38,290 nucleotides of DNA from a virus: the IMG/VR virus record IMGVR_UViG_3300032087_002194, positions 1-38,290 of that record; one strand, given 5' to 3'. Within the stretch, counting starts at the first letter, position 1. Every line of letters begins with the position of its first letter. Below are positions 72-5,234 of this stretch, piece after piece. The notes under the pieces are model-generated. The model saw only the letters and a program-made list of their open reading frames with translations, was not told the origin of the DNA and did no database searches. The position numbers and the translations under genes are program-made.

Positions 72-89
72 GTGCCACAACTGTGGTAC
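72..89 (+). promoter_or_regulatory. operator A, palindrome CCACA-AC-TGTGG
   Basis: GTGCCACAACTGTGGTAC is a near-perfect inverted repeat with arms CCACA/TGTGG. A -10-like TACGAT (87-92) overlaps its right end. The same block recurs at 354, 660 and, in altered form, 1844, each time just before a small early gene. No good -35 is visible here, so an activator is as likely as a repressor. Confidence 0.65.
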
Positions 90-98
90 GATGTCGGA

Positions 99-116
99 GT
101 CGGGAGGGATCCCGGC
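99..116 (+). ncRNA. 5' leader hairpin A with GGGA loop
   Basis: GTCGGGA (99-105) pairs with TCCCGGC (110-116), including one G-U pair, around a GGGA loop (106-109). It lies between operator A and the start codon at 138. The stem sequence differs from the other three leader hairpins but the GGGA loop is kept. Confidence 0.6.
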
Positions 117-137
117 ACGCACCTCGACAGACGAACG

Positions 138-287
138 ATGAACACTGAAGAGTTCCAGGCTCAATGCCTGCGACTGCTGGCCGCTGCTCGCAAGTGGCCC
201 GACCACGAGTGGGAGCGACTCGAGGGCACATGGACGATGGGGATACTCGACGCCATGTGCGATCTCGAATACGATCTCGAGCGGTGA
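138..287 (+). CDS. small early protein, 49 aa
   Basis: I do not recognise this protein. I chose the ATG at 138 because the longer frame would begin inside operator A. The product is acidic and helical-looking, rich in Glu, Leu and Trp (EEFQAQCLRLL near the N-terminus, ending DLEYDLER), with no signal peptide or membrane segment. No clear Shine-Dalgarno precedes the ATG, as is common in cyanobacteria. A strong intrinsic terminator follows at 295, so it looks like a monocistronic early unit controlled by operator A. Confidence 0.6.
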   Translation: MNTEEFQAQCLRLLAAARKWPDHEWERLEGTWTMGILDAMCDLEYDLER

Positions 288-294
288 AACCATT

Positions 295-317
295 GGGGCC
301 TCCGGGCCCCTTTTTTT
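295..317 (+). terminator. intrinsic terminator
   Basis: GGGGCC (295-300), loop TCCG (301-304), GGCCCC (305-310), then seven T residues (311-317). A textbook Rho-independent terminator 7 bp after the stop codon of the 49-aa gene. Confidence 0.9.
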
Positions 318-345
318 GTGCCTGTGCGCGGAGTGGCGCCCCCTG

Positions 346-374
346 TTGCATGTGTGCCACAGATGTGCCATACT
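346..374 (+). promoter_or_regulatory. promoter with operator B
   Basis: TTGCAT (346-351) and CATACT (369-374) are spaced by 17 bp, a plausible sigma-70 promoter. The spacer holds GTGCCACAGATGTGCCATAC (354-373), the second copy of the shared operator with arms CCACA/TGTG(C). A protein bound here would cover the promoter. Confidence 0.6.
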
Positions 375-383
375 TAGTGCATC

Positions 384-397
384 GGAGGGGGACCTCC
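384..397 (+). ncRNA. 5' leader hairpin B with GGGA loop
   Basis: GGAGG (384-388), loop GGGA (389-392), CCTCC (393-397). The 5' arm is a perfect anti-16S sequence locked in the stem and 24 nt from the ATG, so it is unlikely to act as a normal ribosome binding site. The unpaired leader after it is A/C-rich (ACAACACACC). Confidence 0.65.
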
Positions 398-412
398 ACA
401 ACACACCAAGAA

Positions 413-649
413 ATGACCAGCACCTTCCAAGTCGGCACCACCTACAAGATGCTGTGGCATGGCGACGCTGACGCCGTCACCCCCTGCAAGGTGGTCAAGC
501 GCACCGCAAAATTCGTGACCTTCGAGCTGCCCGGCTTTGGCGTCAAGCGCGTTGGCATCAAGGCCGATCTTGAGGGCAACGAAGTCGCCTCGCCCCTGGG
601 CAGCTACAGCATGTCTCCCTGGGTGCGCGCCGAGCGCGTGATGGCCTGA
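413..649 (+). CDS. small early protein, 78 aa, basic beta-rich
   Basis: The function is unknown. The start is the ATG at 413, downstream of operator B and hairpin B. The protein alternates short hydrophobic strands with Lys/Arg (TYKMLWHG, CKVVKRTAKFVTFELPG) and ends with SYSMSPWVRAERVMA. From memory, this general pattern (KVVKRTAKFVT then YSM-P) occurs in small uncharacterised phage and plasmid proteins. There is no signal peptide or membrane segment. The next gene is separated by operator C, which begins within 15 bp of the stop codon. Confidence 0.65.
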   Translation: MTSTFQVGTTYKMLWHGDADAVTPCKVVKRTAKFVTFELPGFGVKRVGIKADLEGNEVASPLGSYSMSPWVRAERVMA

Positions 650-650
650 G

Positions 651-680
651 TTGCCATCTGTGCCACAGGTGTGGTACATT
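651..680 (+). promoter_or_regulatory. promoter with operator C
   Basis: TTGCCA (651-656) and TACATT (675-680) are spaced by 18 bp. The spacer holds GTGCCACAGGTGTGGTAC (660-677), the third and best match to operator A; both are preceded by CCATCT. Confidence 0.65.
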
Positions 681-689
681 ATTTGCATC

Positions 690-709
690 GGAGGCGGGGG
701 ACCGCTTCC
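690..709 (+). ncRNA. 5' leader hairpin C with GGGA loop
   Basis: GGAGGCGG (690-697) pairs with CCGCTTCC (702-709), including one G-U pair, around loop GGGA (698-701). This is the longest of the four stems. The following ACAACAC leader and the 15-nt gap to the ATG match copy B. Confidence 0.7.
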
Positions 710-724
710 ACAACACTCGAGACA

Positions 725-964
725 ATGAACCTCTCCACCTTCTTCGCCGAGAAAGACTTCGAGATCCGCACCTACGAAGTCACCAGCCCCACCACCGGCG
801 ACTCCCACATCATCACCACCGACGTCGTCATCGAGCGCATCCTCAATACCCAAGGCCAAGAGCGCCAGCAAGTGACCGGGATCCTGCAACAGCTCGACTT
901 CCGCAACGGCGACTTTCACCACTTCTTCAAGCACCTGGCCACCGCATTGGCCGCCAACTCCTGA
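725..964 (+). CDS. small early protein, 79 aa
   Basis: Not recognised. The ATG at 725 follows the promoter/operator C and hairpin C module. The product has a beta-like N-terminal half (EIRTYEVTSPTTGDSHIIT) and a helical C-terminal half (VIERILNTQGQERQQVTGIL, then HHFFKHLATALAANS). It is soluble with no signal peptide. A GC-rich UUCG hairpin follows directly, so this may be the last gene of its own short transcript, or the hairpin may lie in the leader of the next gene. Confidence 0.65.
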   Translation: MNLSTFFAEKDFEIRTYEVTSPTTGDSHIITTDVVIERILNTQGQERQQVTGILQQLDFRNGDFHHFFKHLATALAANS

Positions 965-971
965 TCACCTA

Positions 972-987
972 GGCCCCTTCGGGGGCC
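972..987 (+). terminator. UUCG hairpin, possible terminator or processing site
   Basis: GGCCCC (972-977), TTCG (978-981), GGGGCC (982-987) form a very stable 6-bp tetraloop hairpin 8 bp after a stop codon. No T-run follows, so termination is uncertain. Alternatively it is the leader hairpin of the gene at 1013, although the loop differs from the GGGA family. Confidence 0.45.
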
Positions 988-1012
988 ACCCACCCACATC
1001 ACACCTAAACCA

Positions 1013-1333
1013 ATGCCCCGCACTAAGAACGTCGTCGCTGCACGCGCACAGCAGGCCAACGTCGAAGAAGCCCAGGCCGAGATTTCCACTCTCTGGGCCA
1101 AGCGCCACGCCGCGTACCACCAGCTGGTCGGCGTCTCTGCCAACGCCATGTTGACCATTTCCGGCTTCAGCGACGGCGACGAGTGGACGCAACAAGACGA
1201 GTTTCGCTCCCGCTGCGCCACCCACATGGAGACTGCCGTAGCAGATGCTGCCGAGAAGTTCGTCGCGGCTGACGCTGCGCACAAGCAGCAGATCGCCTTC
1301 GTCGCCAAGCTCCGCAAGGAGGCCGCCAAATGA
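1013..1333 (+). CDS. helical early protein, 106 aa
   Basis: Function unknown. The start ATG at 1013 follows a C/A-rich leader. The protein is Ala/Glu/Gln-rich and largely helical: a basic start (MPRTKNVVAARAQQ), a probable helix around residues 10-30, and a C-terminal helix with KFVAADAAHKQQIAFVAKL. It could form a coiled coil. It overlaps the next gene by 4 bp (ATGA), so the two are translationally coupled. Confidence 0.7.
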   Translation: MPRTKNVVAARAQQANVEEAQAEISTLWAKRHAAYHQLVGVSANAMLTISGFSDGDEWTQQDEFRSRCATHMETAVADAAEKFVAADAAHKQQIAFVAKLRKEAAK

Positions 1334-1539
1334 GGGCCACGACTTGGGACATTGTCTGCGCTGCCAACCAGCACCTCGAGGCCACTGGCCGCAGGCTGCA
1401 CATCTACCAGTTCTTTCCTGGCCGCTATCAGGCCATCTCGATCGATCGCCAGGGCACTGCGCGGCCCATGCGCAAGATCGGCTCGCAGATGACCGAGGCC
1501 CAGGTCCGCGAGTTCATCTGGCGGTTCATTTTCAAGTAA
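1330..1539 (+). CDS. small early protein, 69 aa
   Basis: Unknown function. It starts at the ATG inside the ATGA overlap with the preceding gene and ends 18 bp before the next ATG. The sequence reads as a small alpha/beta protein, basic overall, with the aromatic stretch YQFFPGRYQAISIDRQG and a terminal helix (EAQVREFIWRFIFK). No signal peptide or zinc motif. Its place in a tight run of early genes supports expression. Confidence 0.65.
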   Translation: MRATTWDIVCAANQHLEATGRRLHIYQFFPGRYQAISIDRQGTARPMRKIGSQMTEAQVREFIWRFIFK

Positions 1540-1557
1540 ACCCAACCACTTCAAACA

Positions 1558-1839
1558 ATGATCGTTCACGGTTACGACCTCGGCCCTCTTGAGCCCCTGC
1601 CTGATGGCTGGGTCAACCCTGGCGGGTGGTCAGCCTTTGCCATGGTCTCGCTTGAGGAGGTCACCGCTCAGCAGCTCTACGACGCCGGCGGTCGCTACTT
1701 CGGCAACTTGGTCGATGAAGGCATCCTCGAAGACAAGCCCATTGACAACCTGCCGGCCAAGTCGATGTTTGACGTGTTCTACTGCCCGGCCCTTGCTAAG
1801 CCTGACTGCCTCCCGTCACTAAAGCCTCCTTTCAGTTGA
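1558..1839 (+). CDS. early protein, 93 aa
   Basis: Unknown. The N-terminal half is Gly/Pro-rich (GYDLGPLEPLPDGWVNPGG) and the second half contains a helix-like VSLEEVTAQQLYDAGGRYF, a pattern that suggests a small ligand- or protein-binding domain. No catalytic motif could be assigned. It ends where promoter D begins, so it is probably the last gene of the transcript that includes 1013-1539. Confidence 0.6.
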   Translation: MIVHGYDLGPLEPLPDGWVNPGGWSAFAMVSLEEVTAQQLYDAGGRYFGNLVDEGILEDKPIDNLPAKSMFDVFYCPALAKPDCLPSLKPPFS

Positions 1840-1866
1840 CACCGTGCCACAAGTGGGCCACAATAC
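1836..1866 (+). promoter_or_regulatory. promoter with operator D
   Basis: A perfect -35 TTGACA (1836-1841) and a -10 CACAAT (1859-1864) are spaced by 17 bp. Between them is GTGCCACAAGTGGGCCACA, the fourth and most diverged copy of the shared operator. The promoter overlaps the end of the preceding gene. Confidence 0.65.
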
Positions 1867-1870
1867 GGAA

Positions 1871-1885
1871 GCCGGGGGATCCGGC
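1871..1885 (+). ncRNA. 5' leader hairpin D with GGGA loop
   Basis: GCCGG (1871-1875) pairs with CCGGC (1881-1885) around GGGAT (1876-1880). As in copies A-C the loop carries GGGA and the ATG lies about 18 nt downstream. Confidence 0.6.
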
Positions 1886-2231: not shown

Positions 2232-2402
2232 ATGCCCACCGCTAAACAGCACCCGCTGCACGTCCGCGTTCCTGAGCGCATCCACGCGCTCATGCGCGAG
2301 CAGGCCGAGTCCTACGGGGAGGGCTACACCGTCTCGGCGGTGGCCCGCATCATCCTCGAGGACTACTACGCCGGGTGCCAGCCAAAGACCCTCAACCAAT
2401 GA
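2232..2402 (+). CDS. ribbon-helix-helix-like small protein, 56 aa
   Basis: The N-terminal segment HPLHVRVPERIHALM has the alternating strand then helix pattern of a ribbon-helix-helix DNA-binding protein, followed by a second helix (YTVSAVARIILEDYY). Such proteins bind as dimers to short palindromes. It abuts the upstream stop codon and overlaps the next gene by ATGA. It is one of three RHH-like proteins in the window and a candidate to bind one of the repeated palindromes; that link is inference. Confidence 0.6.
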   Translation: MPTAKQHPLHVRVPERIHALMREQAESYGEGYTVSAVARIILEDYYAGCQPKTLNQ

Positions 2403-2716
2403 ACCCCGAGCAAACCTGCGCCGAGATCATCCGCGTTCGGCAGATGATCAAAAACCTCGAGGAGCGGTACAAGCTCTTGACCGCGTCCCTGCAGAACAGC
2501 ATCGACCTGGGCGAGTGCGACGACCTCATCAACGAGTCGGGCGGCTACAGCTACAGGAACATGACTTTTCGCCGTTGCAACAAGACCTCATGGCGCTACA
2601 GCCCCGCGGTCAAAGAATTGCAAGAGCGAGAGCAGGCGAACAACACGGCCAAGCAGAATGTCTCGACTTACCTAATGGTGCGGGTAGCTGATGCCGAGCC
2701 AGAGTATGACTTTTGA
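2399..2716 (+). CDS. coiled-coil early protein, 105 aa
   Basis: Starts at the ATG of the ATGA overlap at 2399-2402. The N-terminal 40 residues are a likely coiled coil (EIIRVRQMIKNLEERYKLLT), followed by a Ser/Tyr-rich middle (SGGYSYRNMTFRRCNKTSWR) and a charged helix. No known domain recognised. It overlaps the RusA gene, so it belongs to the recombination operon and might be an accessory factor for it. Confidence 0.65.
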   Translation: MNPEQTCAEIIRVRQMIKNLEERYKLLTASLQNSIDLGECDDLINESGGYSYRNMTFRRCNKTSWRYSPAVKELQEREQANNTAKQNVSTYLMVRVADAEPEYDF

Positions 2717-3149
2717 CGTCATCGGCACACCTGTCCCCCAGGGCTCGGTTGTCCCCAATCGGTACGGCAGCGGGGTCCGCTACTGCAACGACAAAACCCT
2801 AAAGCCGTGGCGGGCGCAGATCATCAACGAGATGGTCAACCATCGCCCAGACGACTGGGACCAAAGCGGGGCCATGGCCATCTCTGCCGTGTTCCGGTTC
2901 AACCGACCGAAGTACCACTTCGGCACCGGCCGCAATTCCGAGATCCTCAAGGACAAGGCCCCAGAGTTCCACAGCGTCAAACCCGATCTCGACAAATGCA
3001 TCCGCGCCGTCGGGGACAGCCTCACCGAGTCCGGGCTCTGCAAGGACGACGGGCAAGTCGTCTCATGGACCGCCGCAAAACGCTACGTCATCGGCGACGA
3101 GCCGCCTGGCGTCACCCTCACGATCCTCTCGTTTCCCTCTGATGTCTGA
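2691..3149 (+). CDS. rusA: RusA-family Holliday junction resolvase
   Basis: Cleaves four-way DNA junctions as a homodimer, resolving recombination and branched replication intermediates before packaging. The hallmark acidic residues are visible: KPDLDKCIRAVGDSL (about 97-111) gives D99, D101 and D109, and CKDDGQV (117-123) gives the last Asp pair. The N-terminus FDVIGTPVPQGSV matches the family's opening strand. The length, about 150 aa, is slightly above the usual 120-140. The second ATG at 2706 would give the more typical MTFDV start. It overlaps the neighbours on both sides, in an operon with the Erf-like annealing protein. Confidence 0.88.
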   Translation: MPSQSMTFDVIGTPVPQGSVVPNRYGSGVRYCNDKTLKPWRAQIINEMVNHRPDDWDQSGAMAISAVFRFNRPKYHFGTGRNSEILKDKAPEFHSVKPDLDKCIRAVGDSLTESGLCKDDGQVVSWTAAKRYVIGDEPPGVTLTILSFPSDV

Positions 3150-3783
3150 ACTGACTAAAGCACTCGTCAAGTTCCACAAGGAAGTTGGCACGATCCACAA
3201 AAACGCCTCGGCTCAATACGGCAAGTTCGCCGACCTAGCCAACGTCCTCTCCACCGTGATCCCGCCCTTGGCCAACAACGGCCTAGTGATCACCCAGACC
3301 TATGAACCGAGCGAAGGTTTCGAGCCCATCTTGGTGACCACCCTCCGTCACGAGTCCGGGGAAACCATCGAATCCCGGATGCCGATGGTGATCAACAAAG
3401 GGAGGAACATCCTCCACGACACCGGAGCGGCCATCACTTTTCTCCGGCGTTACCAGATCGTCAGCCTGCTGGGCCTGGTGGCCGACGTGGACACCGACGG
3501 CGCGTTCGTCGAGGAGGCGCCTCAGCCGAAGAGCACCACCAAGAAGGAAACCCCCAAGGCAACAAAGAGCAAGCCCTTGGGCGACCAACCTCTCACGGCA
3601 ACCGAACGCGACGAGATCCTCTTGGTTCTAGCCGCACGCCACAAGCAGCGCCCCGAGGACCTGGCCGACCTCCAGCAAAAGTTCAACGCCAAATTCAAGC
3701 TCGACGCCGGCGCCAAGCTCTCGCTCAACATCACCACACAGGAGCACGTTGAGTTCATCAACCAAACCCTGAAGCCTCTGTGA
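3142..3783 (+). CDS. erf: Erf-family single-strand annealing recombinase
   Basis: Anneals complementary single strands in phage recombination and genome circularisation or concatemer formation. The family signature is clear: MSELTKALVKFHKEVGTIHK at the N-terminus, YGKFADLANV, then the core GAAITFLRRYQIVSLLGL (95-112), ending in the acidic VADVDTDGA. The C-terminal part is Lys/Thr-rich linker followed by a helical tail, typical for Erf proteins whose C-terminus oligomerises or binds partners. It overlaps rusA by 8 bp, which pairs annealing and resolution. Confidence 0.88.
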   Translation: MSELTKALVKFHKEVGTIHKNASAQYGKFADLANVLSTVIPPLANNGLVITQTYEPSEGFEPILVTTLRHESGETIESRMPMVINKGRNILHDTGAAITFLRRYQIVSLLGLVADVDTDGAFVEEAPQPKSTTKKETPKATKSKPLGDQPLTATERDEILLVLAARHKQRPEDLADLQQKFNAKFKLDAGAKLSLNITTQEHVEFINQTLKPL

Positions 3784-3784
3784 C

Positions 3785-3982
3785 ATGCCCCAAGATCCTG
3801 GCGATGTCTACGACCTCGAATATCGGCGTGCGGTTGAGATCGCCGCCAAGAAGCCAATAGCGACCCACCGCTATTCCTTCGAGATCACTGAGGCCGACTA
3901 CAAACGGTTTCAGCAAATCAAAAAGCGGCTCGGCATGACCTCCGCTCAACTGTTCCACTGCCTAATCCTGAATCATGGCTGA
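3785..3982 (+). CDS. ribbon-helix-helix-like small protein, 65 aa
   Basis: Starts 1 bp after the Erf stop codon. The C-terminal half (HRYSFEITEADYKRFQQI, KKRLGMTSAQLF) has a strand-helix-helix pattern like a ribbon-helix-helix repressor, with an unusual long N-terminal arm. Soluble, no signal peptide. It overlaps the next gene by 8 bp. It could autoregulate the recombination operon or bind one of the palindromes; the fold assignment is by eye only. Confidence 0.55.
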   Translation: MPQDPGDVYDLEYRRAVEIAAKKPIATHRYSFEITEADYKRFQQIKKRLGMTSAQLFHCLILNHG

Positions 3983-4268
3983 CGAGTTTTCCTTCCGCTT
4001 CTCTCTCTTCAAGCAAGACGAGAAGAAGAACGACAAGGCACCGGACCAAACCGGCACCCTTGAGATCCAGCGTTCCCAGCTGCCCGCCTTCGTGAACTGG
4101 CTGCGCGAGCAAAAGCCCGAGCAAAACTACGCCGGCGATGACGTGGTCAAGCTGCGCGTGGCTGGCTGGAACACCGTTAGCGAGAAGAGTGGCCGCGCTT
4201 ACGTCAGCGGTCGCATCACCCCTCCGATGGAAAAGGCAACGGCCGCCCCGGCTTCGCTGGATTTCTAA
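3975..4268 (+). CDS. possible ssDNA-binding-like protein, 97 aa
   Basis: The 97-aa product has a charged Lys/Asp N-terminal stretch (FKQDEKKNDKAPDQTG), a beta-like core (VVKLRVAGWNTVSEKSGRAY) and a disordered end finishing in SLDF. Location next to Erf and RusA, the beta-rich core and an acidic/aromatic tip are what a small single-stranded DNA-binding protein would show, but the acidic tail is very short and I cannot confirm an OB fold. Treat the function as a hypothesis. A strong terminator follows at 4291. Confidence 0.6.
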   Translation: MADEFSFRFSLFKQDEKKNDKAPDQTGTLEIQRSQLPAFVNWLREQKPEQNYAGDDVVKLRVAGWNTVSEKSGRAYVSGRITPPMEKATAAPASLDF

Positions 4269-4334: not shown

Positions 4335-5234
4335 ATGTCCGCCGACTCGATCTCTGCTTATCTGAACGAAATCGGGCGGCATCGTCTACTGACTGCCGAC
4401 GAGGAGATCACGCTGTCGCGGCAGGTGCAGCGTTGGCTCGAGCTGAAAGATTTAGACCGTCCTCTGACCCCTCGCGAGCGGCGTGAGGTGCGCCTCGGTG
4501 AGCGTGCAAAGGAGCGCATGATCGTCCATAACCTGCGCTTGGTTGTGAACGTCGCCAAGAAATACATCAAGCTGCTGCGCCATGGCGGCCTGTCGTTTGA
4601 GGACTTGATCCAAGAAGGAACGATCGGCCTCGATCGCGCTGTTGAATTGTTCGACGCGACCAAGGGCTACAAGTTCTCGACGTATTCGTATTGGTGGATT
4701 CGCCAAGGGATCACGCGGGCGATCTATACCAAAGACCGCTGCATTCGCGTTCCGCAGCACATGCTCGAGAAGCTGCAGAAGTCGCTCAACTTCAAACGCG
4801 ACTTCATGGTCGAGAACGGCTACGAGCCCTCGATCGCCGAGCTGGCCGAATCCGTGGAGATGACCGCCAAGGATTACGCCACCCTGGTCAGCCGCACCAA
4901 TACCCACAAGAGCCTCGACGAGCTGGCCTCGGTCGATGGCAGCCCCCTGCTCGATCTCGTGCCCGACGAGTCGGAGTCGAATCAGATCCTCGAAGAGGTG
5001 GACAAGAGCGTGACCTATGAGCAGCTCAACCTCGCCTTTTTTCGTCTGAAGGATTGCGAGAGGGATATTGTCTCTTCGATCTATGGCCTGAAGGACGGCA
5101 TTGCCGTGAGCCGCAAGGAGATGGGCCTCCGTCGTGGCGTCACCCGTGAGGCGATCCGGCAACGCGAAATGCGGGGGCTGATGAAGCTACGGCTGGAGCT
5201 TTCGGAAAAAGTGGAAGACGGGGTGGCCGCTTAG
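4335..5234 (+). CDS. phage-encoded sigma-70 family factor (cyanobacterial type)
   Basis: A 299-aa sigma factor that should load host RNA polymerase onto chosen promoters. Region 1.2 is residues 4-36 (ISAYLNEIGRHRLLTADEEI), region 2 about 58-130 (LRLVVNVAKKY, FEDLIQEGTIGLDRAVELFD, KFSTYSYWWIRQGITRAI), region 3 about 137-215, region 4 about 225-288 with the helix-turn-helix around 258-286 (GVTREAIRQREMRGLMKLR). The motifs are those of cyanobacterial primary/group 2 factors, not of T4 gp55 or ECF types, and the long acidic region 1.1 is absent. In region 4.2 RQREMRG replaces the usual RQIE-x-A, so -35 recognition may differ. It lies directly after a terminator with no room for its own standard promoter and no Shine-Dalgarno. 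Its last 48 bp overlap the convergent gene at 5187. Confidence 0.93.
   Translation: MSADSISAYLNEIGRHRLLTADEEITLSRQVQRWLELKDLDRPLTPRERREVRLGERAKERMIVHNLRLVVNVAKKYIKLLRHGGLSFEDLIQEGTIGLDRAVELFDATKGYKFSTYSYWWIRQGITRAIYTKDRCIRVPQHMLEKLQKSLNFKRDFMVENGYEPSIAELAESVEMTAKDYATLVSRTNTHKSLDELASVDGSPLLDLVPDESESNQILEEVDKSVTYEQLNLAFFRLKDCERDIVSSIYGLKDGIAVSRKEMGLRRGVTREAIRQREMRGLMKLRLELSEKVEDGVAA

Follow-up and report, generated by a model that had tools for sequence, protein, structure and literature searches.

Bacterial mRNAs are stabilized by stem-loops at the 5' end of the transcript, which slow decay in both Bacillus and E. coli (reviewed in PMC3997798), and the stem-loop of T7 gene 10 raises both mRNA level and expression (PMC6146998). 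Multi-copy leader elements termed SAS and ESAS have been described for Cluster K mycobacteriophages, where they lie upstream of many non-structural genes (PMC3203893). Here we report on a short leader hairpin in early genes of an uncultured, probable marine cyanophage and of many relatives, first noticed in the IMG/VR virus record IMGVR_UViG_3300032087_002194 (38,290 bases, analyzed as a whole and referred to as the window), where it follows an operator-promoter in four places. The observation proved to be real and broader than assumed in the original prediction, which had been derived from the letters of the window. What can most safely be said is that the hairpin is a conserved RNA structure and that it lies at, or close to, the predicted 5' end of early mRNAs. 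It has the look of a new leader element whose role is probably to protect or mark early viral messages. That no described phage element of this kind was known at the outset agrees with the lack of a match in Rfam or the searched literature: in Rfam 15 nothing scored above chance and no family reached its gathering threshold, BLASTN of two leaders against isolated phages gave no match, and scans of bacterial genomes for the protein family phrog_6004 (see below) and for the leader pattern returned no relative or chance matches only.

All four copies of operator-promoter and leader hairpin were recovered in the window, at 71–116, 346–397, 651–709 and 1836–1885, each ahead of a small early gene on the plus strand, and all four hairpins fold as described at the outset. 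The operator TGTGCCACANNTGTG is exact at 71, 353 and 659 and carries two mismatches at 1843; elsewhere in the 38-kb window no match has fewer than three mismatches, except for the same sites on the opposite strand. In copies 2–4 the operator sits between −35-like and −10-like hexamers: TTGCAT (346–351) and CATACT (369–374) flank 353–370 in copy 2 (346–374), TTGCCA (651–656) and TACATT (675–680) flank 659–676 in copy 3 (651–680), and TTGACA (1836–1841) and CACAAT (1859–1864) flank the diverged operator at 1843–1860 in copy 4 (1836–1864). For copy 1 (71–92), only the −10 box TACGAT (87–92) is clear, overlapped by the operator TGTGCCACAACTGTGGTA (71–88). The hairpins (loops in brackets) are GTCGGGA[GGGA]TCCCGGC at 99–116 before a 49-amino-acid gene without family match (138–287), GGAGG[GGGA]CCTCC at 384–397 before a 78-amino-acid gene (413–649), GGAGGCGG[GGGA]CCGCTTCC at 690–709 before a 79-amino-acid gene (725–964; phrog_6004, function unknown), and GCCGG[GGGAU]CCGGC at 1871–1885 before a 62-amino-acid gene (1904–2092). 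Two details of the geometry had to be revised: the fourth loop, taken for a GGGA tetraloop, comprises five bases, and the hairpins, formerly placed 10–20 bp downstream of the operator-promoter, begin 6–9 nucleotides (nt) past the −10 box (6 nt in copy 1), that is, at, or at most about 3 nt from, the predicted transcript start.

By themselves, the four window copies are suggestive and not proof, since a 5-bp hairpin with any loop of 4–5 nt is common, arising in 5–32% of dinucleotide shuffles of these GC-rich leaders. With a (G/T)NGA loop the frequency is 0.2–2.5% of shuffles per leader (four-leader product about 2e-9), and only copies 2 and 3 reach significance by their folding-energy z-scores. 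The strong evidence for the hairpin comes from comparing the relatives, not from the window. We assembled a family of 88 non-redundant promoter-leaders from 50 contigs; a few of these leaders, namely scattered singletons and hairpins for which no convincing promoter is seen, probably belong to the background. Their −35 boxes read TTGACN or TTGCCA, with a TTG-type box at 17–18 nt spacing in 73 of the 88, and their −10 boxes CATACT, CATAAT, TACATT or TATACT. In 67 leaders the stem begins 8–10 nt past the −10 box, near the predicted transcript start; mostly 14–21 nt separate the hairpin from the ATG, and the leader 3' of the hairpin consists of 79% A+C, a Shine-Dalgarno-like motif being present in 7/88. 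The loops are GAGA (43), GGGA (27) or GCGA (18), collectively GVGA, a subset of GNRA tetraloops. The earlier notion of a constant loop therefore holds as a restriction, though not for GGGA specifically, whereas the claim that stems differ by pair-preserving changes is borne out by the inner stems: 27 different ones occur, compensatory changes are seen among them, and they give 44 double-change cells and a score for covariation of 1.16 versus 0.25 in shuffles (0/500). The closing pair varies as well (G-C 54, A-U 26, C-G 7).

As the 88 rows were chosen as hairpins, their percentage-paired values are selection-biased and not independent, and the argument is therefore carried by a count of leaders selected by operator and by a set selected via the terminase. 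When selection was by operator instead of pairing, the hairpin was present in 8/9 leaders with the operator of the window type (lineage a, GTRCCACA-N2-TGTGGYAC), in 45/53 with the lineage b operator (TGGTATGCCATA, lying over the −10 box), and in 7/7 with that of lineage c (GGGGTATACCCC). Of the eight b sites that lack it, five seem to be matches by chance in contigs unrelated to the group; the remaining three, which include isolate S-CBS3, carry a hairpin with a different loop. In S-CBS3 (L319, about 26127, minus strand), a single b-type operator promoter precedes the leader hairpin CCGGG[GCAG]CCCGG; the annotated start of the coding sequence (26129) falls at the upstream edge of the operator and is probably too early. 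For the second approach, a positional scan (−10-like box, 4–12 nt, a four-base loop on a stem of 4 bp or more, and finally the start of an open reading frame) was used in place of a covariance model because 4-bp stems carry too little information, and expected GVGA counts were taken from loop frequencies elsewhere in the same contigs. GVGA loops made up 57 of 124 leader-position hairpins in the operator-derived set (1.5 expected) and 14 of 85 in the terminase-fetched set (0.8 expected, p = 1e-13), the latter selected independently of the operator but including some c-operator contigs and thus a known lineage. Loops of the GUGA, GNAA and UUCG types were not enriched in either set, and GVGA was not enriched in three 400-kb stretches of cyanobacterial genomes (picked by their sigma factor), in six isolated cyanophages or in the hairpin-less d relatives described below. 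It is well supported by this comparison that the leader RNA is under selection as a structure, with its loop restricted to GVGA.

Within lineage a, a scan of IMG/VR with the Erf protein found four contigs, with five copies in L009 and six in L011/L049. New stems around a GGGA loop are GGGCA/TGCCC, GGGCC/GGCCC and GAAGCGG/CCGCTTC, and the copy-4 orthologues in L009, L010 and L011 have the hairpin GTCGGA[UGGA]TCCGGC. Further covarying copies in related phages, on which the original prediction had made itself dependent, are accordingly present, in L009 and L011/L049 as well as in the other lineages. One and the same leader can stand before different genes: that of L009 at 227 recurs in L049 at 7210, and the window hairpin 99–116 is found in L049 at 7575 ahead of another gene. 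A given gene can also have different leaders, as seen for phrog_6004 and for the 78-amino-acid gene of copy 2, which is 91% identical in L009 and L011, yet has the stem GGGCC[GGGA]GGCCC there. On this comparison, the cassettes have clearly been shuffled among these phages. Such shuffling could be taken to mean that the hairpins have no RNA function, the copies descending from an ancestral cassette and the hairpins being relics or symmetric DNA sites, recombination boundaries between small genes. We consider this very improbable: 27 inner stems with compensatory changes around a fixed loop are not expected from drift of copied sequence, homologous recombination would favor a fixed stem sequence, and the strand asymmetry of the loop speaks against a symmetric DNA site. 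A two-hairpin leader was seen before a gene whose product starts with MKIL/MRVL (L011 2112–2185; L110 7262, minus strand; L210 1345; L213 18384; L218 7530); in L011 its first hairpin has lost the GVGA loop and now reads GGGGC[ACG]GCCCC. Matches to TGTGCCACANNTGTGGYA outside lineage a are mostly unrelated, several resembling zinc-ribbon coding sequence (Cys-His-x-Cys-Gly), so that this pattern cannot serve as a marker on its own. Two unrelated phage contigs, L045 (4448–4467) and L048 (7027–7046), carry a symmetric TGTGCCACAAGTGTGGCACA-type operator, the same operator type, between TTGACA-like and CACAAT boxes, without a GVGA hairpin.

The relation between operator and hairpin became apparent with the phrog_6004 protein of copy 3 as query, for which 40 loci (L064–L103) were fetched: the protein is 61–93% identical across them, but the upstream DNA differs. 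The gene thus seems to behave as an early cassette open to exchange, around which promoter and leader are replaced wholesale. In lineage b (L071, L073, L075 and others), hairpins such as GGGAGGCG[GGGA]CGCTTCCC, GGGA[GAGA]TCCC and GCCG[GAGA]CGGC follow the b operator, and a scan of viral contigs with this operator revealed dozens more leaders, whose whole contigs were then fetched. Lineage c (L094–L098, L100) has GGGG[GCGA]CCCC, and operators besides the a, b and c types also occur before the hairpin in relatives. Lineages d (L064–L070, L079–L093) have phrog_6004 under other repeated promoters and no hairpin. Repeated early promoters of their own, of the TGTGCCAAC-N6-AGCTGCACAAT type and TTTGTGCTACAATTTGAT, were noted in the hairpin-less L064–L070, L103 and L083–L093. 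By gene content, a, b, c and d form one related group with terminase, portal and tail genes in common. This comparison shows that operator and hairpin are separable, the hairpin being independent, as judged from these leaders, of which operator precedes it. The proposal that both form one fixed module under a single DNA-binding protein, and with it an obligate coupling to that protein, consequently could not be upheld, as the hairpin is kept behind quite different operators and the d relatives are devoid of it. A variable operator next to a constant hairpin would allow cassettes to switch repressor specificity while keeping their expression leader.

As to function, our tentative first choice, to which we assign somewhat less than an even chance, is that the hairpin acts as a 5' shield and insulator of early mRNAs. 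We prefer it because of the stem-loop literature cited above and because host RNase E rises during infection by cyanophage P-SSP7 (PMC9692554), which would provide a reason to protect phage mRNA. The hairpin would hide the transcript 5' end from 5'-end-dependent decay, which in cyanobacteria would be due to RNase E or RNase J, and would keep the A/C-rich ribosome landing strip free, so that the messages of small early genes would be stable and translated efficiently irrespective of the operator and gene inserted. The timing of the promoters would be set by the operator, to which a small phage protein of the ribbon-helix-helix type probably binds. Several points weigh against this assignment. 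The d relatives express the same phrog_6004 cassette from promoters without a hairpin; none of the phages with GVGA leaders is cultured; and cyanobacteria are without close homologues of RppH, whose step is the one blocked by a 5' hairpin in E. coli (PMC10989914). Further, a GAGA hairpin occurs about 13 nt past a stop codon and away from any promoter in L184, L211 and L219, and a pure shield would need no particular loop, yet the stable GNAA and UUCG loops are unenriched. This hairpin within operons would be compatible with a binding site as well as with a shield inside the transcript that acts once processing has taken place. It reads GGCCCTG[GAGA]CAGGGCC and lies between two genes of one operon (L184 7079, minus; L211 10059, plus; L219 8467, plus; L157 1401, plus), a U-run following only in L157; the window has GGCCCC[UUCG]GGGGCC in the same place, at about 972–987.

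It is above all the restricted loop that speaks for a specific reader of the hairpin, which would then serve as a recognition tag for a host or phage factor, either an RNA-binding protein or RNA polymerase together with Nus-type factors in a manner akin to boxB/put-like antitermination. Polymerase would in this case pass the terminators between cassettes, or early mRNAs would be marked for translation or protection. This is possible, although we would not favor it. The restriction is sharp, with 88 GVGA leaders and zero GUGA at leader positions alongside the unenriched GNAA and UUCG loops, and it persists while the stems vary completely, including the closing pair; there are terminators between cassettes, namely an intrinsic terminator-like hairpin with a T7 run (seven T residues) between cassettes 1 and 2 of the window (295–317, plus strand, as judged by sequence) and those at about 2085 and 3060 in L011. 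The boxB loops of lambdoid phages also take a GNRA-like fold. Known phage N proteins, however, read the stem too, which varies freely here, the boxA core (GCTCTT) is found near 0/88 hairpins, and no RNA-binding or N-like protein is among the families common to a, b and c, a search with dedicated models not having been part of this comparison. A more far-reaching version, that the GVGA hairpin is a cap-like tag on the early mRNAs of a large uncultured group of marine cyanophages, read by a dedicated host or phage factor, strikes us as doubtful; if true, it would separate phage from host transcripts during host RNA degradation.

The location of the hairpin ahead of early genes, 14–21 nt before most start codons, would also be in line with a translational operator, to which an early or host protein binds, thereby blocking or timing initiation of the downstream genes. 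We regard this as improbable, as an open A/C-rich leader separates hairpin and start codon and leaves the initiation site uncovered, the leaders lack a Shine-Dalgarno sequence that could be sequestered, and CsrA-type sites need a loop GGA that only 27/88 loops have.

Candidates for the operator-binding protein are found among the early genes, which occupy 1–5.2 kb of the window on the plus strand; the minus strand carries head and tail genes that are lambda-like. Between an Erf-like gene (3142–3783), which follows a RusA-like gene (2691–3149), and an SSB-like gene (3975–4268) lies a gene for a 65-amino-acid ribbon-helix-helix-like protein (3785–3982), a candidate repressor. Its model (predicted local distance difference test score, pLDDT, of 74) has helices at 36–49 and 53–62, and the best Foldseek matches, all weak (E 0.8–5), are ParG, CopG, PutA-RHH, MazE and Arc. 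In each of lineages a, b and c a protein of 60–65 amino acids is encoded between the Erf/SSAP and SSB genes; these proteins, like their operators, have no mutual match (BLASTP), and all look ribbon-helix-helix. We take the predicted fold of the 3785–3982 product as a lead and not a demonstration. A second, weaker candidate is a 56-amino-acid protein with a strand-helix-helix pattern downstream in the copy-4 operon (2232–2402, plus strand), whose predicted structure gave no significant Foldseek match. When proteins shared by every lineage with the hairpin were sought, only recombination genes emerged, the early families shared by a, b and c being an exonuclease-like and an SSB-like protein. A phage-encoded sigma-70-family factor of 299 amino acids (4335–5234, plus strand) could drive later transcription. 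It is 41–45% identical to homologues in the cyanosiphoviruses S-CBS1, S-CBS3 and KBS-S-2A, and the terminase of the window's relatives is 57–60% identical to those of KBS-S-2A, S-H1 and MED4-117. By these similarities the nearest isolates of the window virus are cyanosiphoviruses, for which reason we infer a picocyanobacterial host.

The interest of the element lies in its being a repeated, structurally conserved RNA in the early genes of a cyanophage group that is large and for the most part uncultured. As a small, portable element, the leader may also bear on how phage messages survive and get translated while the RNA of the cyanobacterial host is degraded. Among known systems, SAS/ESAS resembles it in combining a regulator-like inverted repeat that differs between (sub)lineages with a conserved element nearer the start codon. 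SAS, however, is a fixed 13-bp GGGATAGGAGCCC that contains AGGAG and lies 3–7 bp from the start codon, and the ESAS repeats were judged to be DNA sites as their changes do not preserve pairing (PMC3203893); in our leaders, the element on the start side changes its sequence but keeps its pairing. Membership in SAS/ESAS was rejected, the hairpin ending at least 14 nt from the ATG and an SD-like motif occurring in 7/88 leaders. Lambdoid boxB, too, is a small hairpin in the leader RNA of early phage genes, and its loop is GNRA-like, as are the loops here; our element differs in having a tetraloop instead of a pentaloop, a free stem, no boxA (0/88 for GCTCTT, a count by which a lambdoid nut site was rejected), no N-like protein identified among the families common to a, b and c, and one copy per small gene. 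CsrA/RsmA hairpins share the short mRNA-leader hairpin with G and A in the loop, and the GGGA and UGGA copies contain GGA, whereas GAGA and GCGA, which do not contain it, make up the majority of the loops here and no Shine-Dalgarno sequence is overlapped; a CsrA/RsmA site was rejected on these grounds (GGA in 27/88 loops). An intrinsic terminator or attenuator (U-run after 1/88 hairpins) and Shine-Dalgarno sequestration (motif in 7/88) were rejected as well. The closest parallels are the 5'-terminal stabilizing stem-loops of E. coli ompA and papA, B. subtilis aprE and T7 gene 10, in which a stem-loop is positioned at or near the mRNA 5' end, shortly upstream of the ribosome site. These are single leaders for which we know of no required loop sequence, unlike the multi-copy phage family described here with its free stems, restricted GVGA loop and lack of a Shine-Dalgarno sequence. 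As in the stabilizing stem-loops, conservation concerns structure and not sequence, and by analogy the element may work like these known 5' stabilizing leaders.

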